This document shows positions 6,805 to 61,786 of a stretch of 64,000 nucleotides of DNA, one piece after another (within the stretch, counting starts at the first letter, position 1; the number at the start of each line of letters is the position of its first letter). This stretch comes from Diabrotica undecimpunctata (Eukaryota; Arthropoda; Insecta; Coleoptera; Chrysomelidae), in the NCBI RefSeq assembly GCF_040954645.1, contig NC_092804.1, positions 146,639,108-146,703,107 on the forward strand, written 5' to 3'. The notes beneath the pieces were generated by a model that saw nothing but the letters and a program-made list of their open reading frames with translations, was not told the origin of the DNA and did not search any database. The position numbers were made by a program, and so were the translations under genes.

Positions 6805-7053
6805 GTGTTAACACAACAGGAGCCTTGTCCTTAGCAGAAGACTATCCTAAAGTAACCTCCTCATCTACATCGTTACCTGGTTTCAGTAGGTTGCCAACAA
6901 CTTTTACAAACAACCACAATCATCACCGAAGCACCACGTACTTACCCAATGCCATCTATGGCGAATGGCCGTCATACGCGACTGACCAGTATGGTCTTAA
7001 CTCTTCAGCACAAAGGAGTCGACCGATCTCAGCAGCAGCTTCGTTGTCAGCAA
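6805..7053 (+). CDS. srp: GATA factor, N-terminal region exon (serpent type)
   Basis: This exon encodes the linker N-terminal to the zinc fingers of a GATA transcription factor, a nuclear DNA-binding regulator. The acceptor is TTATTTTCAG at 6795-6804 and the donor is GTAAGT at 7054. The reading frame enters with the last two bases of a codon (GT) and leaves with the first base of the next (A at 7053). It encodes about 82 residues rich in Ser, Thr, Asn, His and Tyr, including YLPNAIYGEWPSYATDQYG and ending ISAAASLSAS. This low-complexity composition is typical of GATA activation regions. There is no start codon in this exon, so at least one upstream exon must exist and was not found. Coding status rests on matching phase with both downstream alternatives. 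Confidence 0.82.
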
Positions 7054-19954: not shown

Positions 19955-21160
19955 AATAAAATCGGAGAAGATCAGGCGGGGTTCACGGCAGGAAGATCTT
20001 GCATAGACCACATTTATACACTCCAACAATTAATTGAAAAAAAAAAATGGCAAAAAATAGACCAGAACACATGGCATTCGTAGATTTAAAAAAGGCATAT
20101 GACACGGTCCCCAGAAAACAACTATGGAACACGATGAAGGAAATCGGTATAACTCAGAGGTTAATAGAAGCCGTAAAAAACCTTTACAACAACAACAAGG
20201 TAAGAGTTAAAACCGGCAATAAATACTCCAACGAATTTAAGACCACAAAAGGCTTATTGCAGGGATGCTCTACATCTCCGACACTGTTCAAGATATTCCT
20301 CGAACAAATATTAAAACCATGGAAAAGGAAATGTGAAGGGATGGGAATACCAATCCGTGACAACTTCTTGTACACATTAAGCTTTGCAGATGACCAAGTG
20401 GTAACGGCTCAAGATGAAGAAGATCTGTGCTATATGCTCCGAAAATTAGAAAAGGAATACACAAAAAATGGACTGGAAATAAATCTAGAAAAGACTGAAT
20501 ATTTAACAACAGAGCAAAAACCAGTGAGAAACTTGGAAATGGACGATAATGGGGAAATTAACGGCACTGGCAAATTCAAATATTTAGGATTCATACTCTC
20601 AAAAAATGGAACCACCGAGCAAGAGATAACCAGCAGATTAGCACAGACAAGAACATGTATTAAACAAATGAACGGGGTACTGTGGGATAGACAGATTACC
20701 AGAAATACAAAAACGAGAATTTATAACACCTTGGTACGCAGTATAATGACCTACGGAGCAGAGAATTGGGTAAAAAATAAACGAAACAGGTCCAAAATCA
20801 CAGCAACTGAAATGGAGTTCATGAGAAGAAGCTGCAGAGTGACAAAAATGGATCGCATCAGAAATGAGGAGATAAAACGAAGAATGGCAATAGAACAAGA
20901 CATACTCAGCTACATCGAAAAAATGTTTAATTTGGTATGGGCATGTGAGAAGAACAGATCATACAAGGTGGATAGCAAAGATTTCGGATTGGAGCCCAAT
21001 AGGGAGGAGGAAAAGAGGTAGACCCCGAAGATCATGGAGGGATGAAGTTGACGAGGCCATGGAAAGACGAGACCTTGGAGATGGAGAATGGCAGAACAGA
21101 AAAGACTGGAGACGTTGGCTGAAAGAAGGAAGGCGGCGACAGCTGTAAAAATTCTTATAT
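19955..21160 (+). mobile_element. LINE reverse-transcriptase fragment, almost complete palm domain
   Basis: The frame begins near 19965 (EDQAGFTAGRSCIDHIYTLQ), slips one base in the A-run at 20036-20047, and runs open at 20047-21021. It shows MAFVDLKKAYDTVPR (palm A), KGLLQGCSTSPTLFKIFLEQ, the catalytic box SFADDQVV near 20380, and GKFKYLGFILSKNG. It then follows the tail seen at 17285-17800. A two-base deletion near 20930 shifts the frame, and the rest continues at 20945-21148 as MRRTDHTRWIAKISDW and RGRPRRSWRDEVDEAMERR. The endonuclease is missing, so it is 5'-truncated and inactive. The frame is otherwise well kept, so it is not very old. Confidence 0.88.
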
Positions 21161-29245: not shown

Positions 29246-32178
29246 GAGTAAAGTGTCCAAGAGTACGCACGTACGTTTTCTCATTATAAAATAAATGGTT
29301 AGGTTTTAGTTTACATCAAATAAGTAATAGCTGAAATATGTCATAAATTAGTCAGAAAAGTCTCAATACCTTTGACTGTAAAGTTGCACAAAACATAAAA
29401 AATTCAATAATATTCAAATGGTGCACATACGTACTCTTGGGAATACTTCGTTTTAAGAGTACACAGTAGGGTTCCTAAGAGTGCACATACCTTTCAAAAG
29501 CACAACAGAAAAATGTTTATTCATAATCAAAGTAAAGTAAAAATATAAAATTTAGAATCTCCAATTAATAAAGAAATCACAACAGAACTGACCAACTGAA
29601 TATGTGCACGCTTCATGCCACCAGGCTTTAGATTGAAAGCACTGGATCCAGCTTCGTCTGGTGGTTCCGCAAACATGCAGGACAAAATATGTCTTTCTCT
29701 GACATTTGGTTAAATTCCGATTTATTTTCTTTATCCTCAATACTTATTTTAGCAGATTTCGTTTTCGACAACACCTTTCTTTTCAACTTTTTAGGATTCA
29801 AACTTCAGTGTTTTCACTTATGTAACCATCTATTATTTGCCTTTTAATAACCTTCTATTAGTTTGAATTTTTTCTTTGAGCTTCTGCCTCTAATATCTCA
29901 AGAGTGTGATTAAAGGGCGTACTGGTTAAAATTTCTAATTTTTGAGCTCTTCTTTTTTGAACTTCAGAACATTCCATTTTTGGTAATGACCTAATTTTGG
30001 ATGGAGATCGAATGGAAGTTTGGCTCAATGTTGTCAATAGAAAAGTTAGTTGATATTGCCGAAACTTATTTAGCTTGATTGTTTCCTGGACCATATTTAT
30101 TGAATCATTATCAATGTTGGATCAGGAATATCTATTATTAGAACTTGATCCATACTGATTAAAAGTAGTGTAATCAAAAGATCAAATTTTAACTGAGCTA
30201 CTGGTTTTTTTTCATTATTGATATCTAGGAAAATTCACAATCTACGACTTCTAATTCACCATCAGAGAAATTTTTTTTACTTCCACAAACTTCCTCCCAT
30301 ACATTAACAGATTTTTTCTTCTTTTCGTTTTTTCTGTTTGAGGCAGATTTCGCTGCTTCCACCGTCAATATTTCTTGTTTAGGTTGCTTTTGGGTGTTTG
30401 GTCTATCATTTAGCATAGAAGGAAAGAAGTCTTATTCTGAAAATATTAGTGGGTTGAACGGAAAAATTCCGGTCGATTTAAAAGAGTTTACAGCCTTTTC
30501 AATGTTAGCAACTTTATAATAAGCTTTTAAAAACAAACCAGCTACATCAGTCTGGTTAATAACTTTACCAGGATGACTGACGAGCCAGCTGTTACAAAAT
30601 TGACTATAAGGCACAAAAATTAATGATCTGTAGGGTACGATGTGAAATATGATTAGGTATCAAAAAGAATCTAAACAGATATTTCTTGATTAGATCTCTC
30701 TGCCTTCTGAAAACGTTAAATCCATTAAAAGAACAGGTCTGCATTTATGAACCCTGCTTCTAAAACAAATTTTAAAGCTCCACTTGCAGCTTCTTTGTAG
30801 AGATCTTCGCGCAACCTTTGCTTGGGAAAAATAAATGCTGGCAATACGTATTCTCCGCTAGCGTTAAAACAACAAACTTCCGTGATTAACTGACCACGTT
30901 CTGCACTTGCGGCCTTTCCAACACTTCTTTTTTCTTTATATTTGTGATAACTTTTGGCAGTTTATTGGGAACCATACTTATCTGAGTTTCATCCATATTA
31001 TAAATACAGTTGGAAGGACAATTTTGGAAGGAACTTTTCATACAAGCATTTAAGGTTCTTAAAGATAAAAAATCTATCAATTTGAGGTTTACTAAAGCCC
31101 ATTATCCTCCCTATGGAACATTTTTCGGGTTGTCGAAGCGTTAATTTCTGTCGTAGACAAAAGTTCCTAACCCACTTGTCACCTGCAGCTTTCTTAGTTG
31201 CATTGACAGCGTAGTTTATGACAGCGTATTCAAATGCAAAATGCTTAAGAGCTTTTCTTGTCAATTCACAAAACCTTATATCAAGTTGCCTTAGGTGTTC
31301 TACTAGCTGAATTTCCATAGCATTAAAAAAGCACATTTGAATATACCTAAAGATGTAGGTACCGTGCCATATTTTAAGCTCTTGCGAATAGTGGCCACAG
31401 GAATATTCAGGTCTCTAAATATTTGCCTTATCGATTTTCCATTTATAATATCAGTCCATATTTGTTCTATCAGTTGCTCGGTAAAAATCAGCTTATACTG
31501 GGACGTTCTCTTGTAGGTGTGAGCACTCTTTTCTAAAAAAAAAACAATGCTAACTGTTAGCGCAGCAGAATGATTTCTTTAGATTATAATATACACCTAT
31601 TTTTCTATAAATAGTAGGTATAGTGCTCTTTAATGTACTTTAATAGTACACCGTTTCAACAATGCTAACTGTTAGCGCAGCAGAATGATTTCTTTAGATT
31701 ATAATATACACCTATTTTTCTATAAATAGTAGGTATAGTGCTCTTTAATGTACTTTAATAGTACACCGTTTCCAAGAGTACGCACTGCTTACTCTTGGGA
31801 ACTTTAGAAGGCGCACTTTTGGCATACTAACTGGTAAATAAAATCGTTTTTTTATTAAAACAAAACCGTAAAACAAGGTAAAATAAATAAGGACAAACAT
31901 AGTCTGTAGAATAATCATATCCAAGTGAAATAAATGTGCCTACTTACCAGAGAACACGTTATTTTCACTAAACAAAGATGTAACTTGTCAATTTGCCAGC
32001 AGAGGGTCTTTATTTCTAGGTAAAAGTTAAAAACGTATAGAATAGATGTCACGACCACTTCTAAAATATGATCGATATAATTTACTATATTATTACATCG
32101 TTGTAAAACATATTATATTTTAGTAAAAACAGGTGTGCGCACTCTGGAGCGGGTGCGTATTCTTGGGCCACTTTACCC
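29246..32178 (-). mobile_element. pogo/Tigger-type DNA transposon with both ends, dead transposase
   Basis: The ends are inverted: GTAAAGTGTCCAAGAGTACG from 29248 and, read inward from 32176 on the minus strand, GTAAAGTGGCCCAAGAATAC. TA dinucleotides at 29244-29245 and 32179-32180 fit the family's target duplication. The minus-strand transposase is in pieces: a pogo helix-turn-helix (IINGKSIRQIFRDLNIPVAT near 31430), then EIQLVEHLRQLDIRFCELTR and KKAAGDKWVRNF (31000-31320). After these come NCIYNMDETQISMVPNKLPK, with the first catalytic Asp (NMDET), near 30990, and FNASGEYVLPAFIFPKQRL near 30860. Later it reads HPGKVINQTDVAGLFLKAYY (30540) and a Cys/His-rich tail, SWIQC...WWHEACT (29600). The second Asp region is missing and several frameshifts exist. 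Confidence 0.85.
31543..31772. repeat. perfect 115-bp tandem duplication
   Basis: The 115 bases at 31543-31657, starting AACAATGCTAACTGTTAGCG and ending ACACCGTTTC, are repeated without a mismatch at 31658-31772. The duplication is inside the pogo/Tigger element, upstream of its transposase. Perfect identity in an otherwise decayed element means it is recent or an assembly artefact. Confidence 0.92.
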
Positions 32179-32952: not shown

Positions 32953-33128
32953 TTGATCCACGCACAGCGGAATTCTTCACGGAAGGTAGAGAATGTGTTA
33001 ATTGCGGCGCAATTGATACTCCTTTGTGGCGCAGAGACGGCACAGGCCACTATCTTTGCAATGCGTGTGGCCTATACCACAAGATGAATGGCATGAACCG
33101 GCCTCTTGTGAAGCAGCCTCGTAGATTG
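32953..33128 (+). CDS. srp: GATA factor exon encoding the N-terminal zinc finger
   Basis: The exon is bounded by an acceptor ending CTGCAG at 32952 and a donor GTACTT at 33129. It starts with the last two bases of the codon begun at 7053 and ends on a codon boundary (phase 0). The product is a class IV GATA zinc finger: [20 protein letters not shown] with C-X2-C, 17 residues, then C-X2-C ([14 protein letters not shown]), followed by the basic stretch [10 protein letters not shown]. In GATA factors this N-finger stabilises binding to double GATA sites and binds FOG-type cofactors. The exon is 176 bases, not a multiple of three, and has the same phases as 34651-34769, so the two are alternatives. 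It is intact. Confidence 0.95.
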
Positions 33129-34650
33129 GTACTTTTTTTATTTATGAATTTTTTATTTTAATTTTTTCTCACCCAATCATTTTGCTTCTTCGTGGCCGAA
33201 CGGCAATGGTTGAGGAGAAGTTCTTTTTGTAGAAAGGGGAATTGATTTTGATTAACATATTTTCAAAACTTATGGGTTTTGCTTTTAATGCATGCAAAAA
33301 AACTAAAATTAACTATAGCAAAATTCATAATGTTTACTACCATTACTTTCATTTTTTCACGGATACTAATTATCCAAATTTATATAGGAATTGCTTCATC
33401 TTTACTTTTGTCTGACCTCGAAATTTCTTTTTCTATTTTTTCCGTTGTCACAGTTCTTACAGTCATACAATTTATTGCTTTAGCTTTTATCTTCAAAAAT
33501 TTTATTTATTAAATGGTTAGTTCTTCTTCATTTTTTCTCGTCCTTTCATAATACTGTTGGCGTTGCCACTATAAGAACTCTGAAGTTCATTTATCATATT
33601 TTAATTTACATATTAAGTCATCTTACATCTTGGTCACACATACATAGCTTCAAAAGTTCTAGATAAGTCAGCACTTGTCCAAAAAAAGACAAAGCTCACA
33701 GCGTGGTACTCTATCGTTTTCGGATATTCAGATTCAATGTTTACAGTTCAGCTAGAAGGTTCTATTGTAGTAGGTACTCTTTCCCGTTTTGGCACTAGTT
33801 TTTCTTGTCTTTTGACTTGACTTTTCCATATTCTTCCATCTCTTAACTGTCCCCTATCATATACTTCTACACCTATGTTTCTCAATATCTTATTTCTTTC
33901 ATTTTTATTACTTACCTATGATAGACTATAGGTACCTACTTCCACATTTATTATTAACCGACATTTTCAGTGCTTTTCCGAGAATTTATTTTTAGCCTCC
34001 ATTTTTCATTAGTTTTATTAATATTTTTTAACATGCTCTATGAAATCAATTTATTAATTTTCCTTTCCTAAGCTCTTCATTTGTACCACGTATTGGAGGT
34101 ACTCTTAAGCTTGTTTCCATCTTCTCTGCTCTTATTTTGTGTATTGGTAACCTTGATTAAGCCTTTAATTTTTAAATTTCTTTTTTTTATCATCGTCAAT
34201 TCTTACATCAAACGAATGCTATAATTATTTTTCTCTGATGACTAGTTTGCAACCAGAAAAAATTTGAAACCATTATAAAACGTGACATACTAATAATAAA
34301 TTATTATTTAATACTAAAATAGTAATAAAGTTAATGAAACTTTATATTTATATTTTGTTAAACTTTTATTACGAAAACTAACCAAATTGTTAAGGGATAT
34401 TTTTAACGTCCAATTTTAGGTTAATTTCTAATACAGAAAATATGTTGATCCCCCAAACTTTCTCTTCAACCAGTGCCGTTCGGTGTAGAACATCATTGAT
34501 TGAAAAAATACAAAAATGCTAAAACACCCCCGATGTGCGAGGCAAAGCTGCTACCAAAATGTCAAAATTCAAAATTTTTGAGCTAGTTCTTTGTTAATAA
34601 TATAAAATACTACTTAATTTGATAAGGTAACCCCCTATTTTGCGTTCCAG
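33129..34650. other. intron between the two alternative GATA exons
   Basis: AT-rich and 1.5 kb long. A short minus-strand stretch at about 33730-33905 reads NIGVEVYDRGQLRDGRIWK, and another near 34020 reads NKTNEKWRLKINSRK. These look like decayed LINE coding sequence, but no clear order of motifs supports it. The polypyrimidine-rich CCCCCTATTTTGCGTTCCAG at 34631-34650 is the acceptor for the next exon. Confidence 0.5.
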
Positions 34651-34769
34651 TGGCGGCAGAGCCGGGCCACGGGGGTGTTCCCGATTACTACAAGAACTAC
34701 TATACTGGGTACAATGGGGTTCGAAACCCCACCGTGCCGGGCCCTGAAGAAAAGTCAAATCGACGATTG
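34651..34769 (+). CDS. srp: GATA factor alternative exon without a zinc finger
   Basis: A 119-base GC-richer segment is bounded by a strong acceptor (TTGCGTTCCAG) and donor (GTAGGT at 34770). Joined to the A at 7053 it reads M, then AAEPGHGGVPDYYKNYYTGY, then NGVRNPTVPGPEEKSNRRL, all open. It ends on the same RRL and in the same phase as the N-finger exon, so it joins the C-finger exon directly (RRL-SASRR). It has no Cys pairs and replaces the N-finger by a Tyr/Gly/Pro-rich stretch. In Drosophila, serpent makes one-finger and two-finger isoforms from such a pair of exons, and this is the likely counterpart. Transcript evidence is not available here. The phase match and splice sites make it more than chance. 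Confidence 0.78.
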
Positions 34770-35215: not shown

Positions 35216-35484
35216 GATTTTTCTGAAATTTTACTATACTATAGTAAAATAAACATAGTTATCGCTTAAGTTCAAGACATGTGTGAAATAAAAGCTCCAA
35301 ATAAGAGGATTCATTTGGATGTATCCTCCAGTTTTTTCTAGTAACCTGTTCCTGAAATAATCGAAAAAAAGGGTAATTAGAATATCTAACTATAATAGTG
35401 AAATTTGGTTGCGCAGATTTTAGAAGAATTAGTGGCATTGTTAAGTATCTTAGCATTGCTATGCTTTGTGCCCTCCAAATAAAA

Positions 35485-36290
35485 TTTGGCAGGACCCTGG
35501 TCTACCTGGCCTGTCGGCTATACGACCGTTAACGAATCCACTGCCCCTACGAGTCCGATACCAAAGCGAAGGTGCCACGCCACGTATGCAAGAAACGTTT
35601 CGTGGGGCTCCACCTCCCCCGTAGTACCTGTGTTGCGATTACCTCACTTACCCGTTATCCCACCCACGGGCGGATAGGCGAAGCAGGCAGAGGAATTTCC
35701 ACCTCGCACGTAGACAGGTCGCCGCCGAGGATATCTTCTCTACCACTCTTGAATCTCCCGACAGGTACGTGCCGGGGCACCCACACCACGCCTGACACTA
35801 AGCCAGGAGAGGTATGTACGGGCCCAGCTCGTTCAACCTCGCCAGGTTCTTTTGGAATGAGAGTAGAGTGGTCCTACGAGAGTCTCGTCTCGGATACTAG
35901 GAGTGTAGACCGGTGACCGTGTCGCCTGAGCGACCGTGTGCGTTTCTACAAACCCGACATCTCAGGCGACGGCTCTCCACCTCTCGATTCCTACCCATTA
36001 GTCGCCTCTTACGACAGGCAGGCACTTCTGACCTCGGCCGTATTCTTATCTCCGCGAGCCGAACGGAGAAGTATCTTAGCAATCAAACAGAGGTGGGCTC
36101 AAGACTGTCTGAATATCAGATAACACCAGCAAATACTTACCAGTAAGTAACACATCACTGATCTGGCCACTGAATGAATGCCGAGCTTCCGATTGTTACG
36201 CCGGTCGGAGGAGCCCGATAACTCGGGCGTAAAATGCGTTATTTCGCACATCTCACCATAAACAACGTTTGCTGTAATTTATTATATTCC
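35485..36290. repeat. GC-rich interspersed repeat, long copy
   Basis: A block of about 800 bases is sharply GC- and CpG-richer than its surroundings. Overlapping frames exist on both strands without a recognisable product, so no gene is called. The part at 36165-36290 matches, in reverse complement, 39235-39430 (CCGAGCTTCCGAT, AAAATGCGTTATTTCGCA, CATAAACAACGTTTG). This shows it is a dispersed element, probably from a retrotransposon, but the class is not determined. Confidence 0.6.
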
Positions 36291-39234
36291 CACGGTAATG
36301 TGGAGAAGGTAGAGACTATGCTATAGTTACGTGAGAGGAATGGAGGACTAAATATTTTCGATAATTACGCTAGATCAAAAACTGACGGAAACTACAGGGA
36401 AGAAAAGTCGCCGATGAGATGAAGAGATAGTTGGAAATCTGCTTCCAAAAGGTTAACAGCTATGAATTGGTATTAACAGATCGAAATATTCTTAACAAGA
36501 AGACAAAGATATTGAAAAACCAAAGCGAAGGTTAGCAATTGCAGAAAATGACTGACAAAACAGAAAAGGAGGAAGGATCAAAAGAAAAAGCTGTTGGAAA
36601 TAGGCGAACACCTAACACATGACTTATTCAAGAACTCAACGAGCATTAAAGAATATCTACAACCGCAAGAAATGTATGAATATTTAAGCCCCGATATTAT
36701 TTTATATAGAATTAAACTAATTGATTAGGTATAATAAGGATTGATATTTCGATTCCCAACGCCAATTGTATACATTTACATGAAAGTTACGATCATCATA
36801 ACTTTACTATACGTAAGTGTGTATAAATTAGAACAAAATTATTTCAGTTGTGAATTAATGTGAACGCTTTATTGATATAGTGCGTTCACCTCATCTTTAT
36901 AAAAAATTAAATATTTTCTGAATTGGCTATGCAATGAAAACATAGTCAGCTTTAAAGAGCCATACATTGTTTTGCAAATTTATATGGTCAACAAAATTGA
37001 GTACAACAAAATATAGGTCTTATAGTATAGATGAAACTCAAAATTGTGTTTACTAATCTTTTCGAGTTTGTGTGGGTTTACTTAGAAATACCATGTACTG
37101 CTTTCCATTTACATAAAGATGCGTAAAACATTTCTACATTTCTGTAACTTTAAATTTACGGCACGAAGATTCTTATTTTAAAATAATTTAGAAATAATAT
37201 GTTTATATCTTTTATATTTAAAAAGACGTATTATAGAGGACCGCTAAAACTTTTTTTAGAGGAATCCACGAAAAGGTTTTCAATTAAATACGGCAATGTC
37301 GTATGTTAGCTCTTATATAGTGTCTTTCATATTTTGTATATAGAGCTAGAATGAAAGTAAAGCAGTAGATGGATTTTAAAGACTCTTTTAATTTTCGAAG
37401 TATTCTCCGAATATTAATACATTTTTTATTTCCTGTAACTAACTCTCGAAAAAGTCGTTTTATTATTTTTAAGATACATCTTAAAATTGTGGTTTTGAAG
37501 GTATTGTTTCTATTTTCTAACCACTGAAACCTTTTACCACTAATCAATCATTAATTTCTAAAAAATCAAAAAATCTTTGAGTTTTAGTTCGGGATTATGA
37601 AAAAGTTGGTTTGCAAGACTCATGGAAAAAGAATGTTTGTATGCAAACCACGAGAGACAGTGCTTTAATTGCGTAGAGAAATTGTTGCTGCATGATGTGC
37701 TTTCGAGAAAAATATCACGACAATATTTTTTGAGACAGTTTGAAACAGCAGGACTTTATAGTTGGAACACCAAAACAAAACACCCAAACTCTTCTTTATG
37801 TGCTGATTCGTATACATGCATTCACGATGTTGTATACGTTTTAGAGTTTGCTTTGAAGCAGTTTAGTTTTTGAACAAAAAGTGCAAACCACAAAAAATAT
37901 TAACAAAACCCAAAAAACGGGCAAAAATGTTCATGGTTTAATTTTATTCCTCGTTAGCTGATCAACTCTGTTAATTTGTTGTAGCTTCAACCCTTCGCGT
38001 ACTACAGGTACTTCGCGTTATATTACTTTCCAAAAAAAAGTTGAAATGTCCAATCTCAAGACTTTTTCATTTCTATAAAGTTAAAATTTTACTTCCTCTG
38101 CTGCTTTTTCTTTTAAGTATAGTGTTTTTTACAATAATACCATCATAATTCAGTGCTCTGTTTCTATGAAATATAGTTTAAAAGTTTAAATTAAAGAAAT
38201 TCTAACCTACTTTATTGATACATGCATTTTATTGCTATTTTTATAAAACAACATGCTTTATTATTTACACAACCTTGTAAAATTGTTGTAGTAACTATTA
38301 GAATTGGAATACTTAGATATAGCAAAAAGCGGAAATATTCTATAAAAAAAAATGAAAAAATAAAGAAAAATACAAATTATCCACACTAAACAGGTTTGTT
38401 TGGAAAGTGAAACTGACAGATGTCAATAAAATCTACGTCATCACTGCGGCAGTCCATTTTTAGTACTGATAATTGACGAGTGGCGCCATCTTTGTCGAAG
38501 TATGCAAAATATAAAAGACACTTCAGCTATATAAGTACCTCTTAAACAAATTGTATTTTTAAAAACAAAAATGTGAACTGGTTGTATGTAATAAAATATT
38601 AAAAGTAAGTTAAATAAAAATACAATGACTGGTATCCCAAAATGATTAATTTTTCACGACAATGTTTGTTCATATGTGAATTATCAATTGTTTTTATCGA
38701 GGTAATTATATGTAGTCTTGCAGTAATTATGTCATTTATCTATAATACGTTTATAGTTTTTCTTAGAGTACAATATTATTATAGTAGCTTATGTAATTGC
38801 TATAGCAAATTATTATTTTTTATTGGTCACCATTGACTGATTATGACTGGCTAAAAACCTGCTTTATAAACTAAGAAGTGAAAGATCAGAAAAACTATGC
38901 ACGTTTTATACTATACATTATTGTTTTGTATATATGTTTTGATTTGGTTTAAACCAGTAATTCTAGTTTGTAATGACGAGCAATGAAGTTCAAACAATGT
39001 TACTATTTATTTTTCCTAGAACAGTCAACCACTCGCACTATTTTTAACTATTTTATATCTTGTTTTAGTTTATTACATTTACCTTTTTAAGTTTTGTATA
39101 TTTTTAAAGTTGATCTTCTCCATAAACTTTGTCTTTTTTCTTTGGTTGTTCTGAACATTGTTCTGAAATTTTTTGCTCCTGGCAATGAAGTTTTCATCAA
39201 ATATTTCTTTGGTAATAAACCACAGATTTATAAT
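36291..39234. other. intronic AT-rich sequence, nothing recognised
   Basis: A plus-strand frame at 37622-37873 has no family resemblance. A patch at 38405-38510 has higher complexity (CAGATGTCAATAAAATC, GAGTGGCGCCATC) and may be a repeat. No gene is called. Confidence 0.4.
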
Positions 39235-39890: not shown

Positions 39891-40055
39891 TCTGCTTCTC
39901 GCCGAGCTGGCTTGACCTGCACCAACTGTCATACAAGTACTACATCACTTTGGAGAAGAAATGCATTAGGGGAACCAGTTTGTAATGCTTGCGGACTCTA
40001 TTACAAATTGCACTCAGTCAACAGACCTCTATCGATGAAAAAAGATAGTATACAG
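39891..40055 (+). CDS. srp: GATA factor exon encoding the C-terminal zinc finger
   Basis: The acceptor is ATATTTTCAG at 39881-39890 and the donor is GTAAAA at 40056. Entry and exit are both phase 0. The 55 residues start [20 protein letters not shown] and contain the second GATA finger, C-X2-C, 17 residues, C-X2-C ([17 protein letters not shown]), then LSMKKDSIQ. This finger with its basic tail is the main GATA-binding module. TTSLWRRN and HSVNRP with MKKDSIQ differ from the TTLWRRN, HGVNRP and MRKDGIQ that I expect in pannier-type proteins. That favours serpent, though not decisively. The exon is common to both isoforms. Confidence 0.95.
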
Positions 40056-43582: not shown

Positions 43583-43715
43583 ACGCGTAAACGAAAACCA
43601 AAAGGAAGTAAAGAGTCTAATGCTAGTAGCACGCACATTCCAAGAAACATGAGCACATTACTACCAGGCATAAAAATGGAAGACGTTGGAGTCAAAATTG
43701 AACATACAACATTAG
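43583..43715 (+). CDS. srp: GATA factor exon, basic tail and linker
   Basis: The exon enters in phase 0 right after IQ of the C-finger exon and reads TRKRKPKGSKESNASSTHIP, the conserved basic extension that contacts DNA and acts as nuclear localisation signal in GATA factors. It continues as NMSTLLPGIKMEDVGVKIEH. IKMED and VKIE resemble SUMO-acceptor motifs (hydrophobic-K-x-acidic), a suggestion only. The donor is GTACGT at 43716, leaving one base (G) of a split codon. The exon is 133 bases long and intact. Confidence 0.92.
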
Positions 43716-44817: not shown

Positions 44818-45119
44818 ATAACTATGGTGATCTAAAAACAGTATCATCGCTTAACCAAATTCAGCATTCTTCTAGCTACGGTTATGCCACTCAAACCCAC
44901 CAAAGATTGAGCCCTTCATACACCGCTCAGTCCTCTCCACAATTATCTTCACAATCACATTACTATGACACTATTCTTCAACAACCAAGCCCCAGTCCTC
45001 CATCGGATGAGTCAAATAGCTCTATTAACAACAATAATATAAGTAACAACAATAATACCAAAGTTATTATTAACGGAGACCACTGCGACAGACCCACGGT
45101 AGTGTCGCTCTCATCATAA
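44818..45119 (+). CDS. srp: GATA factor last coding exon
   Basis: The acceptor is CTTTTTCAG at 44809-44817. The first two bases complete the codon begun at 43715. The frame reads DNYGDLKTVSSLNQIQHSSS, then a Ser/Gln/Tyr-rich stretch (SSQSHYYDTILQQPSPSPPS), an Asn run (INNNNISNNNN), and ends PTVVSLSS with TAA at 45117-45119. Such low-complexity C-terminal tails often act in transcriptional activation or repression in GATA factors. From 6805 the two-finger form adds 341 residues and the one-finger form 322, besides what is encoded upstream. No break is present. Confidence 0.9.
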
Positions 45120-49869: not shown

Positions 49870-52010
49870 GTCCCACTTGGGGGACACCTTCAGACGGGAA
49901 ATGGGGCAGCTTCAGACACAATTGGAAAAGTGACAACCTCGTATAAATGTTTTAGAAATTATTTATTACAATATTTAAAACTATATTATGATACTTAATA
50001 AAACCCCTAATGCACATTGAAGTTTTCCAATGAAACTGAAAAAGACAATAATGATTTCTGTCTCTTTGTACCCTGCTCAGAAGGAGTTGGCACAAGGGCT
50101 ATAATTTATGATAAAGAAGCATTAGAGATATCTGGTACGATGGGCTATGATTCTCCCAACATAGTACACATCTTGTTTTATAGTCCCAAATTTAACCAGC
50201 ACAAAATCTTCAATTTTCAATTCACTCCTGTCAAAATTTTGGTGTGGTTCTTCTAATACTTTATCATCAGAGTTTTTGCCATTTTCATCATCAGTTGTCT
50301 TCTCATTCTTCTCATTTTCAAAAAGTAGTTTTCTATTCGTAGATTTAGTACGTTCAGCATTAGAGTTGGTGGTTTTCTTTGTTTTTTTATTGATCTGTTT
50401 TTCTGCCAGAAGAAGCTTTTCTGGGGTGTCAGTTATTATTCTGCTTTTCCCCTTTTCTTAAATCACAGCCAGGCTGTTGATGGAGTGTCTATTGGTTGCT
50501 AAAAGTTTTCTTGCTTGAAATTTGGGTAGATGAGGGTGGTTTTTGAGATTCTAAAGTTGGTAGACTTGCAGCTAGTTGACATGTTAGAGGTTCATCAGGA
50601 AGAGTTTCGTCTGGAAGATTAGGTCTCTCACTGATCAAACTGGAAGCAAACATATCGTTGGTGAAAATGTGCCTGTCAACTGGAAATATTCCTGTTTTTT
50701 TTTAAAGAATTTATAATGCTCTTTGGTAACATGGCACGGCCATGTGCTATTCCAACACATGCGGCCACGTGATAGATTCCAAAACGTTGGCCTGGGTTAG
50801 ACTTCAACCATAAATCAATTGCAGCATTATAATATGTTTTAAAAGGTTTCATCAATCCCACGTCCAGTGGTTGCATCATGTGGGTACAATGCATCACAAG
50901 AACGAAATTGGAAGTGGTCATCCAACCTGACTGATGAGCCAAACCCAAGGTCCCGTTTGGTGCTCCATTTATCATGTGGCTCTTGAAGTGCATTTTCGGA
51001 AATACTAGAGCAGGAGGTATTGTATTTCCAGCTGCATTTATAAACAAAACTGTAGTAACCAGAGTTTCTCTCTCACCACTTACAGCAGCTGCTACTTGTT
51101 TTTGGCCTTCTTGTGAAATCACACGAAAAGGTTCTTGCTTAGTTTCAGTTTTTGTTTCATCCATATTGCAAATTCTGGATGAGTCATAGAGTTCTGGGTG
51201 TCTTTTGATTAATTTTCCATAATTTGAGTAAATTTATTTAACATAATTTTCATAGTTTGTTAAAGGAAATTGCACGTGCAATACTGCATCCTTCAGCAGC
51301 ACGGAGAGATAATCTTGGGTGGCGTTTCGTAAAACCGTATAGCCAGTCCTTTCCTGCCATTCTTGGAGCTTTACAGTTTTTAGGACAATCAATATTGTTT
51401 ATTTTGGCCATCTCATGTGCTAGTTTTCGAGTTTCTAGATTGTGAAGACCATAAAACATTTTTGAACACCTTATTAAATATGCCTCAAGGTCGTCTTCCT
51501 GTTTGTCAGTAAAAACCTTTCTAGTATAGTTTCTAAATTTCATATCATGTTCGCCATCTGGGTTATCCCTAAACTTCTTAACGTAGATACCAACAGTTTG
51601 ATATTTTAATCCAAATCTTTTACCAGCATTTCTTATCGATTCACCATCTAGGATGGCCGCTACACATTCTTTCATAGATTCGGCATCGAAATTTCCTTTT
51701 GTCTTTTCTTTCTTCATATTTCTTACCATCTTCAGACAATCTGCAACAAAGAGAAACCTTTTTTAATAACTAATAGTAAATACCTAAATAACTAACTACT
51801 AATAGACTAGTAAAATGACTTTCAAACACCAAAAACTAACTTTTCACTTTATGACACGAACCCTTTACTGCACTGTTCTACAGACTGAACTACAATAGTG
51901 TCAGTAGTAATGGAATGTTTTGATGTCAGTGTTGCCAACCCGAGTCCTTAAATTTACCCACAATATCAATGTCTGAAGCTGCCCTGTCTGATGGAACCCC
52001 CTTCTCCCCT
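49870..52010 (-). mobile_element. second pogo/Tigger-type DNA transposon, deleted transposase
   Basis: The ends share GGGCAGCTTCAGACA (49904-49918) and its complement at 51970-51984, inside longer imperfect inverted ends. The minus-strand frame 51250-51729 encodes a pogo-type helix-turn-helix (AAILDGESIRNAGKRFGLKY) and a CENP-B-like segment (KDWLYGFTKRHPRLSLRAAE). The frame at 50676-51164 encodes ISQEGQKQVAAAVSGERETL, LVFPKMHFKSHMINGAPNGT and GWMTTSNFV, then jumps to CTHMMQPLDVGLMKPFKTYY. The stretch with the second catalytic Asp is deleted. A slip in the T-run near 50695 breaks the frame before GIFPVDRHIFTND, and a C-terminal piece near 50190-50240 reads KIEDFVLVKFGTIKQ. The enzyme is inactive. 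Confidence 0.82.
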
Positions 52011-53891: not shown

Positions 53892-55263
53892 AGATAAGAT
53901 CTAGTTACTATTTTAATGGGACTAAGCCGCAATTGAAGGTTAAAATAAATTTATTGACGTTTGAATCTTTGATCTTTCACTAATAACTTGTTTATACTCC
54001 AACAATTAATAGAAAAAAGAATAGTGGTTGGTACCGAAGAACATCTAGCCTTCATCAACCTAGAAAAGGCGTATGATACAGTTCCAAAGCTTAAATTGTG
54101 GCAAGCTTTACAACAACTCGACATTAGTCCATACCTTTTAGGAATAATCACAGAAGTATACAGGGGTAACACTACTTACCTAAAAATCGGAAATAGACTA
54201 TCAGAGCCAATAAAAGTAACTAAAGGAATAAAACAAGGATGCAGTATGTCACCCTTACTGTTTTATTTATATATTGAGACTGCCCTCCAAAATTGGAAAA
54301 ACTACTGTCAGGGAATGGGAATCCCCATAGGAAATGACGTACTGTTCTCCCTGAACTTTGCGATGACCAAGTCGTCCTAGCTCAAGATTCTTATGATCTA
54401 AAATTTATAATAAAGAGTTTATACCGAAAATATGTAAAATGGGGGTTACAAGTCAGCATGAAGAAAACAGAATATTTAGTTATCAATTTAGATGCAAGGT
54501 TTGAAGTGTTGATAGACGAGGACGTGGAAATCAAACAAGTGGAAAAATTTAAATATTTAGGTGCACTCATTGCTAAGAACGGCTTGGAAGAAAGCGAAAT
54601 TAAACATTGAACTAATTAGGGACGTAAAATTGTAGGATGTCTGAACTCCTTATGGTGGGATCGCAACATTTCCAAAAGGAACAAAAAAAGAATATGACAA
54701 ACCATGGTTGAATCAGTTCTTTGTTATGGCTCTGAAGTATGGACAATTAATGCAGACCTGAAGAGAAGATTGTTGGCAGCTGAAATGGATTATTTGAGAA
54801 GAAGTGCTAGAACATCAAGGCAGGAAAGGAAGACCAACGAATCTATAAGAAATAACATGAATGCTACAGAAACGGTCATTGACAGAATAGAAAGAAGAGG
54901 TTCAAAATGGTTTGGACACCTATTGAGAATGCCTGACGAACGTTGGCCCCAAAAACTTCACAAATGGAAGCCCCCTGGAAGAAGAAAAAGAGGTATACCT
55001 CAACGCTCATGGAATGAAGGAATTAGAAGAGCGATGGAATCGAGAAGTTTGGAGGAGGAGCATGCCTTGGACCGGGAGGATTGGCGGAGGAGAACGGGAA
55101 TACGGCGATAGCCGTCTCCAAAATGTATTGTATTTACAAGTTGGATTAATTTCAAATGTCAAGAAACTTATTTTAATCTTCAATTGTGGCTTATTCCCAT
55201 TAACATAGTAAAAACTTTGAAGTGCCACAAGAAAATAGCTTCAGAACAATAGATAAGATCTAG
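53892..55263 (+). mobile_element. LINE insertion with inverted 3'-end copy at its 5' junction
   Basis: The 13-bp direct repeat AGATAAGATCTAG (53892-53904 and 55251-55263) brackets the insertion. It starts with a segment of about 61 bases at 53905-53965 that is the inverse complement of the element's own 3' region at 55151-55211. The LINE follows at about 53985-55111: HLAFINLEKAYDTVPK (palm A), KGIKQGCSMSPLLFYLY, and a catalytic box FADD damaged by a one-base change of frame near 54358. Then come KFKYLGALIAKNG, VESVLCYGSEVWTINADLK, RGSKWFGHLLRMPDERWPQK and RGIPQRSWNEGIRRAMESR. It ends with the 3' block CCACAAGAAAATAGCTTCAG near 55223. It is related to the LINEs at 17285 and 19955. Confidence 0.85.
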
Positions 55264-60424: not shown

Positions 60425-60481
60425 CGAACATAAATTAGACTTATAATAATAATACAAGTGAATATAAAATAAATTGTGAAA

Positions 60482-61786
60482 ATGACGACGATTTATGAGC
60501 TCACAGTGACGAATTTAAGAAGACATCTCGAAGACAGAGAATTAGCTTCTACCGGAAAAAAGGCTGAGTTAGTCCAACGACTAAAGAACGCTTTGCTAGA
60601 AGAAGGTCTAGATCCAGAGACTTATATATTTGAAGATGCTGTCCTCTCGTCGATTTCGAAAGTTTCCTCTGATGTAGCCAAAGTTTCCGGCGACATCGCA
60701 TCATTGGAGAACAAAGTTTCTGACGATATTTCGAAAGTTTCTTCTGATGTAGCCAAAGTTTCCGGCGACATCGCTTCGTTGGAAGACAAAGTTTCTAACG
60801 AGATTTCTTCGCTGGAAAGCAAAGTCTCTGCTAACATCTCTTCGGAAATCTCTAAAGTCACTTCTGAGATGTCTGCCCTGGACGATAGAATATCTTCGTT
60901 AAAAAACCAAGTTGCTGCCGATATGTTGGCCTTCGAAGAAAAGATATGGAAAGAGATGGAAAAGAAGCTGGAGGAAACAGGGACAGCAGAGAGAGGAAAC
61001 AATCCGATTACAGTGGAGATAAAAGAAGACGAGACGAAATGTAAGTTGGAGACACGGCCGAAATTTGAAGGAAGTGGAGGTTCTATTCATGTTAAAGTCC
61101 CAACTTTCGACGGAAAATCATCATGGAACAACTACATTAAACAGTTCGAATCAGCCGCAAGAGCAAATGGATGGTCTGAAAAAGAAAAGGCTGTAAACCT
61201 GACTATCGCTCTTCGAGGAGATGCCTTAGATGTGCTTCAGACCATAGCCGTAGAGGAGACCGATGATTTCGAACAACTGAAGAAGAGGTTAAATATGCGA
61301 TATGGCCACGAACATTTGGAGCATGTATATCAGTCACAGCTTAAAAATCGTAGACAGAAGAAAGATGAGGCTCTTCAAGAATATGAGGTGGATATTGCCA
61401 GATTAGTACGATATGCTTATCCAACAGCTCCCGAAGACATGATGGAAAAATTGGCCGTTCAAACGTTTATTGATGGTCTTCGTGATCATGAAATGCAGAG
61501 AACACTGCGATTAGCTCGTCACAAAACGCTGGTTGATGTCTTATCCGCCGCCCTCGAATACGAGTCAGCTACGCAGGCCTCTGGCGGGTACAGTAAAGTT
61601 AGAACTGTAAAAGAGGAAGGAGATGAAGATAAACTTGACCAGCTCGTTAATATGATAAAAAGCATGACATACAAGAAAACGAAGACCATCAGATGCTGGA
61701 ATTGTGGCGAAATAGGACACGTACGAAGTTCCTGTAAGCACCCTAGGTACGACGCAAATCAAGAAACTCACCATCAGGAAAACTAG
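60482..61786 (+). CDS. gag: gag polyprotein of Ty3/gypsy retrotransposon, with SAP domain
   Basis: The structural protein forms the particle and packages RNA. The first ATG of the frame is at 60482 and the frame of 434 codons is intact. Residues 5-40 resemble a SAP motif (LTVTNLRRHLEDRELASTGK). Residues 55-165 form a Ser/Val/Asp/Lys heptad-like coiled coil with two copies of a 25-residue unit (SKVSSDVAKVSGDIASLE), from a 75-base repeat at 60656-60805. Residues about 195-370 are the retrotransposon gag domain (VKVPTFDGKSSWNNYIKQFE, LTIALRGDALDVLQ, TFIDGLRDHEMQRTLR). A CCHC zinc knuckle follows (RCWNCGEIGHVRSSC). The stop is at 61784-61786. pol overlaps in the -1 frame. Confidence 0.92.
   Translation: MTTIYELTVTNLRRHLEDRELASTGKKAELVQRLKNALLEEGLDPETYIFEDAVLSSISKVSSDVAKVSGDIASLENKVSDDISKVSSDVAKVSGDIASLEDKVSNEISSLESKVSANISSEISKVTSEMSALDDRISSLKNQVAADMLAFEEKIWKEMEKKLEETGTAERGNNPITVEIKEDETKCKLETRPKFEGSGGSIHVKVPTFDGKSSWNNYIKQFESAARANGWSEKEKAVNLTIALRGDALDVLQTIAVEETDDFEQLKKRLNMRYGHEHLEHVYQSQLKNRRQKKDEALQEYEVDIARLVRYAYPTAPEDMMEKLAVQTFIDGLRDHEMQRTLRLARHKTLVDVLSAALEYESATQASGGYSKVRTVKEEGDEDKLDQLVNMIKSMTYKKTKTIRCWNCGEIGHVRSSCKHPRYDANQETHHQEN

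Follow-up and report, generated by a model that had tools for sequence, protein, structure and literature searches.

The window analysed here is a stretch of 64,000 nucleotides from the leaf beetle Diabrotica undecimpunctata (contig C2, positions 146639108–146703107) and contains the serpent locus. Its exons and related features are listed below, with positions counted from the first nucleotide of the window.

6805–7053, + strand: exon 3 (common), with the donor CAA/GTAAGT; the translation matches database protein P0001.
32953–33128, + strand: exon 4A, 176 nt, N-terminal GATA finger; GATA-family match.
32985–32986, + strand: predicted internal donor of exon 4A, AAG/GTAGAG, in frame with the 4B acceptor.
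33129–34650, + strand: inner intron from 4A to 4B, 1522 nt.
34651–34769, + strand: exon 4B, fingerless alternative, 119 nt, 40 residues.
39891–40055, + strand: exon 5 (common), C-terminal GATA finger; GATA-family match.
43583–43715, + strand: exon 6 (common), basic tail past the C-finger, from the joined frame.
44818–45119, + strand: exon 7 (common), C-terminus and stop, from the joined frame.

Joining exons 3, 4B, 5, 6 and 7 gives an open protein of 321 amino acids if counting starts at the first complete codon in exon 3, and all 321 are identical to P0001 (100%). This D. undecimpunctata database protein has 514 residues and is named isoform X2 by its source, although it may be a prediction. 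Exon 4B corresponds to residues 276–315 of P0001 and is identical to them apart from the junction codon, which exon 3 completes. Residues 12–74 and about 74–156 of P0001 match locus L016 and residues 157–192 match locus L011, both about 23 to 78 kb upstream of the window; no location was found for residues 1–11. The 5′ part of the gene therefore lies upstream of the window and serpent spans more than 120 kb, with exons 3, 4B and 5 spread over 38 kb.

Remnants of mobile elements are found in and around the gene. Three reverse-transcriptase frames (931–1815, − strand; 20038–21021, + strand; 53973–54380, + strand) match Pfam RVT_1 above the cutoff and are LINE-like remnants, the second of which sits in the 26-kb intron that precedes 4A. 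Past the serpent stop, a 437-residue open frame (60473–61786, + strand) has Retrotrans_gag, SAP and CCHC zinc-knuckle matches above the cutoffs, and a Tc5-type transposase DNA-binding match just above the cutoff is located at 30998–31414 (− strand). A pair of frames at 50676–51762 (− strand) gave no Pfam match but reads like a pogo/Tigger-type transposase. The intron between 4B and exon 5 is AT-rich and includes a GC-rich stretch at 35300–36499 (GC fraction 0.40–0.58). An Rfam scan of the whole window returned no matches at the gathering score.

Exon 3 ends with one codon base left over, which 4A and 4B each complete, and both exons exit in phase 0 after the residues RRL (…KQPRRL in 4A). Exon 4A is preceded by CAG and followed by GTACTT, 4B is flanked by CAG and GTAGGT, and the acceptor of exon 5, which starts at 39891, is TTTTCAG. 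The 4A product is an entire GATA finger of the N type and matches the N-fingers in the solved GATA-1, GATA-3 and GATA-4 chains. The 4B product, MAAEPGHGGVPDYYKNYYTGYNGVRNPTVPGPEEKSNRRL, contains five tyrosines, six glycines, five prolines and no cysteine. Two features of serpent are present: the N- and C-terminal GATA fingers are encoded by separate exons (4A and 5), and a fingerless exon of like phases lies between them. The coordinates, entry phase and phase 0 exit after RRL given for the two exons in the original prediction are all exact to the base, and the translations agree with its description of 4A as the N-finger exon and of 4B as a Tyr/Gly/Pro-rich segment devoid of cysteine.

Because 4A and 4B are each 2 mod 3 in length (176 and 119 nt), transcripts with both exons or with neither are non-productive: the frame shifts and a stop is reached in exon 5 upstream of the C-finger cysteines. 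U1 pairing is weak for the 4A donor (−4.1) and good for the 4B donor (−8.8). The pyrimidine fraction before the acceptor (0.59 for 4A and 0.82 for 4B) says little about exon choice, since the common exon 5, at 0.53, falls below 4A. Two possible causes of exclusivity were set aside: a steric block, as the 1522 nt inner intron is too long, and a minor-spliceosome mismatch, as both donors are ordinary GT sites when judged against the U12 consensus.

We conclude that serpent of this beetle very probably uses exons 4A and 4B one at a time, the predicted products being SrpNC, with two fingers, and SrpC, with one. The choice between two exons that had been proposed is upheld by the phases and the frame test, by the identity of the 4B form to P0001 and by the occurrence of 4B-type segments across insect orders. 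Both mRNAs would be made in this beetle, with the choice leaning to 4B because its donor looks stronger, and wrong choices, with both exons or neither, would be lost through the frameshift and premature stop. Contact with the FOG cofactor U-shaped would be mediated by a valine of the N-finger, which is kept by 4A (presumably the valine of its CVNC motif) and absent from 4B, and SrpC, lacking this residue, would escape U-shaped. Going by fly genetics in excerpts of Moussalem 2022 (PMC8844375), it is SrpNC that would act together with U-shaped. The locus provides a base-exact beetle case of a conserved splice switch by which one GATA gene could heed or ignore a FOG cofactor.

The choice might be enforced by competing long-range pairings between introns, for which the fly provides a precedent: two intron pairings have been proposed for fly srp (Yue 2016, as cited in PMC6071210 and PMC6027157). 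For the scan, the 1500 nt that precede 4A and the 1500 nt that follow 4B were each compared with the 1522-nt inner intron, with 12 shuffles as reference. The best duplex between the inner and downstream introns (−30.9 kcal/mol) lies just below all of the shuffles (−30.5 to −23.1), but the margin is 0.4 kcal/mol over 12 shuffles and the downstream partner sits in a GC-rich stretch. The best upstream duplex (−24.3) falls inside the shuffle range (−29.4 to −23.3). Within the 1500 nt scanned on either side in this one species, no convincing pairing was found, and we consider the fly mechanism a plausible candidate for this beetle that falls somewhat short of an even chance.

The choice may also not be strictly two-way, because an internal 4A donor opens a third in-frame path. 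Two in-frame donors within 4A, at 32985 and 33120, could join 4B. Use of the former (32985/32986) would place the initial 11 residues of 4A ahead of 4B without loss of frame; the resulting one-finger protein would be longer, and the choice three-way. Its U1 pairing (−6.5) is better than that of the donor at the end of 4A (−4.1), and precisely the same junction, IDPRTAEYFTE-VAAEPGHGG, is present in P0011, a Leptinotarsa protein that bears the name isoform X2. However, the pattern is matched by only one of 194 proteins, the P0011 record may itself be a prediction and the GGT AGA codons at the site supply a GT by coding need; we regard this third path as unlikely. Separately, the junction of another database protein, P0019, fits a C/GT within an arginine codon close to the 4A end; the equivalent position in the window is 33120, with a U1 pairing of −1.6.

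The predicted alternation of 4A and 4B was followed through 194 database proteins, classed from the best 120 of 1397 and the best 120 of 2097 matches. In the best 60 of the first search, the segment before the C-finger is 4B-type in 35 proteins, an N-finger in 21, both in three and neither in one, a fragment. A further 74 proteins divide into 36 4B-type, 34 N-finger, one with both and three with neither (two fragments and a third without 4B). The combined 134 mostly insect proteins thus comprise 71 with a 4B-type segment, 55 with a finger, four with both and four with neither. The other 60 of the first search (P0061–P0120), which are largely vertebrate, include 58 two-finger proteins, one with both segments and one other. 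The 4B-type segment is present in beetles, wasps, ants, bees, mosquitoes, a sand fly, a planthopper, a katydid, a stick insect and a termite; the one lepidopteran protein looked at, P0065, is two-finger. Judged by names and classes among the matches listed, both forms occur in at least 13 other insect species: Diorhabda sublineata, Anoplophora glabripennis, Cylas formicarius, Aethina tumida, Psylliodes chrysocephalus, Lasius platythorax, Nicrophorus vespilloides, Zophobas morio, Dendroctonus ponderosae, Hypothenemus hampei, Rhynchophorus ferrugineus, Coccinella septempunctata and Onthophagus taurus. The suggestion that the switch is old is borne out by this spread across insect orders and by published work across hexapods: according to excerpts of Moussalem 2022 (PMC8844375), both isoforms exist not only in D. 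melanogaster but also in 12 other hexapods, one of which is Tribolium.

Contigs of 923–3,947 bases are the source of 13 of the 4B-type proteins. In 11 of these proteins (P0013, P0017, P0021, P0028, P0033, P0041, P0122, P0126, P0135, P0137 and P0172), from contigs of 1,268–3,947 bases, 4B is joined to exon 3 on one side and to exon 5 on the other. These most likely represent spliced RNA, because the same exons span 38 kb in Diabrotica. The other two are P0054, which begins at 4B, and P0176, which has an unrelated stretch before 4B. Five proteins containing both an N-finger and a 4B-type segment (P0019, P0037, P0057, P0174 and P0062, the last from outside the 134-protein set) are probably gene-prediction artefacts.

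Exon 4B is well conserved. Among 23 beetle proteins, the mean pairwise identity is 0.71 for 4B and 0.88 for the C-finger exon, compared with 0.39 for exons 1–2, 0.38 for exon 3, 0.39 for exon 6 and 0.44 for exon 7. For P0001 and 18 other insect proteins, the corresponding values are 0.53 and 0.83, compared with 0.19, 0.30, 0.29 and 0.25. The firmest part of 4B is its end, EEKxxRRL (0.89 in the beetles and 0.82 in the wider set); the middle shows no such firmness (0.45 and 0.30). The comparison covers the exons other than 4A; the 23 beetle and 18 other proteins were hand-picked from the 71 with a 4B-type segment, at about one per genus and without fragments, with P0013, P0028, P0033, P0041, P0122 and P0126 grouped by likeness. 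The proteins were found with 4B-bearing queries, a bias that favours 4B. This bias should be small in the beetle-rich top matches: of the 39 proteins among the best 60 that lack a finger immediately ahead of the C-finger, 38 have a 4B-type segment and the remaining one is a fragment. The original prediction had looked to conservation of the alternative exon among other insects, and 4B is indeed conserved in the beetles and in the wider set aligned. Such strong conservation among beetles is hard to square with a remark in excerpts of Moussalem 2022 (PMC8844375) that 4B is poorly conserved except at either end and at four to five residues close to the start; for specialists, a fingerless exon far better conserved in beetles than this remark suggests provides a motif worth testing.

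It is highly improbable that the locus makes the two-finger form alone, with 4B as a pseudo-exon or chance open frame: the exon is present in P0001, its identity among the 23 beetle proteins (0.71) exceeds that of exons 3, 6 and 7 (0.38–0.44), and the matching fly exon is described as required for viability in excerpts of PMC8844375.

The nearest relative named serpent by a source is Tribolium castaneum P0015, which has 59% identity over the full query and is among the top matches (best 120 listed); the other GATA loci are separate. Nine GATA-finger matches are listed in the genome, two of them in serpent and one on contig C3. Three further pairs are located about 80 and 97 kb (L008/L004) and about 352 and 357 kb (L007/L002) downstream of the serpent C-finger on the same contig, and near 69.3 Mb of C2 (L001/L003). 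Judged by sequence likeness, these pairs are presumably GATAe-like, pannier-like and grain-like, respectively. The full-length match to P0015 and the separate loci presumed to be pannier-like and GATAe-like argue for the gene being serpent, as first proposed, and not pannier. There is next to no chance that it is pannier or another GATA gene: the finger sequences are common to all GATA genes, but P0015 matches over the full query, the genome holds the other finger loci that we presume to be pannier-like, GATAe-like and grain-like, and the 4B exon itself is a described serpent feature (excerpts of PMC8844375).

An origin of 4B by duplication of the finger exon is suggested in excerpts of Moussalem 2022 (PMC8844375). 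We advance only tentatively, as a doubtful proposal, that 4B is no filler: it would be a gutted duplicate of the N-finger exon, deprived of its cysteines early in insect history and since then kept by selection for a motif of its own, roughly [DE][FYL]YK..YGY.G..R....EEK..RRL, with the third splice form in addition. If this were true, one-finger Serpent would gain a working part besides losing the FOG-binding finger. The 4B tail weakly resembles the 4A tail (the termite 4B tail is YYGFNGITRSPLEEKSNRRL), which would fit a duplicate that lost its finger. Comparison of 4A with 4B by hhalign was not significant (global P 0.33, local P 0.041). In column shuffles, the observed 4A/4B score was attained in 4 of 300 trials for the whole exons, 27 of 300 with RRL removed and 2 of 300 with RRL fixed. 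In single-sequence shuffles of the 4B of each species against Diabrotica 4A, with RRL fixed, the values are suggestive for Timema (0.0020), Zootermopsis (0.0045), Tribolium (0.0085) and Photinus (0.0095), marginal for Microplitis (0.0375) and Diabrotica itself (0.0515), and negative for Anabrus (0.12), Lycorma (0.12), Aedes (0.17), Ampulex (0.19) and Phlebotomus (0.30). With RRL removed, the values are weaker for 8 of the 11 species, or about equal. The test does not single out 4A, because control exons (the N-fingers presumed to be pannier-like and GATAe-like, and the serpent C-finger) give similarly small values in several species, which might reflect homologous fingers or composition. At the level of sequence, the case for shared ancestry of 4A and 4B is suggestive only.

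The exon pair is a further instance of a switch whose kind is already known. Drosophila serpent reportedly has exons 4A and 4B that yield SrpNC and SrpC, in work of 2002 attributed to Waltzer. Excerpts of Moussalem 2022 (PMC8844375) use the names 4A and 4B for the fly exons, and those of Gillis 2008 (PMC2383905) describe serpent splice forms without the first finger; the portions of the open-licence literature covered yielded no separate description of this exon pair for any leaf beetle. The Diabrotica locus resembles that of Drosophila in the identity of the gene by sequence, in its exon order (N-finger, then fingerless) and in having the C-finger in the next exon, whereas its introns are large and contain transposon frames. 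Diabrotica 4B has about 40 residues with a GHGG insert that is mostly lacking from non-beetle forms. The Tribolium protein P0015, at 59% identity over the query, has the 4B-type segment MAAEPGHGGVPDYYKNYYHGYNGANRAPALHTTEEKSSRRL and differs in sequence only, in the less conserved exons. Exon pairs governed by competing pairings are ascribed to fly srp, Dscam and 14-3-3zeta (Yue 2016, as cited in PMC6071210). In contrast to these, no convincing pairing was found in Diabrotica, and 4A and 4B differ in length and content; in common with them, Diabrotica serpent has two adjacent exons of like phase, of which one is predicted to be used per mRNA.
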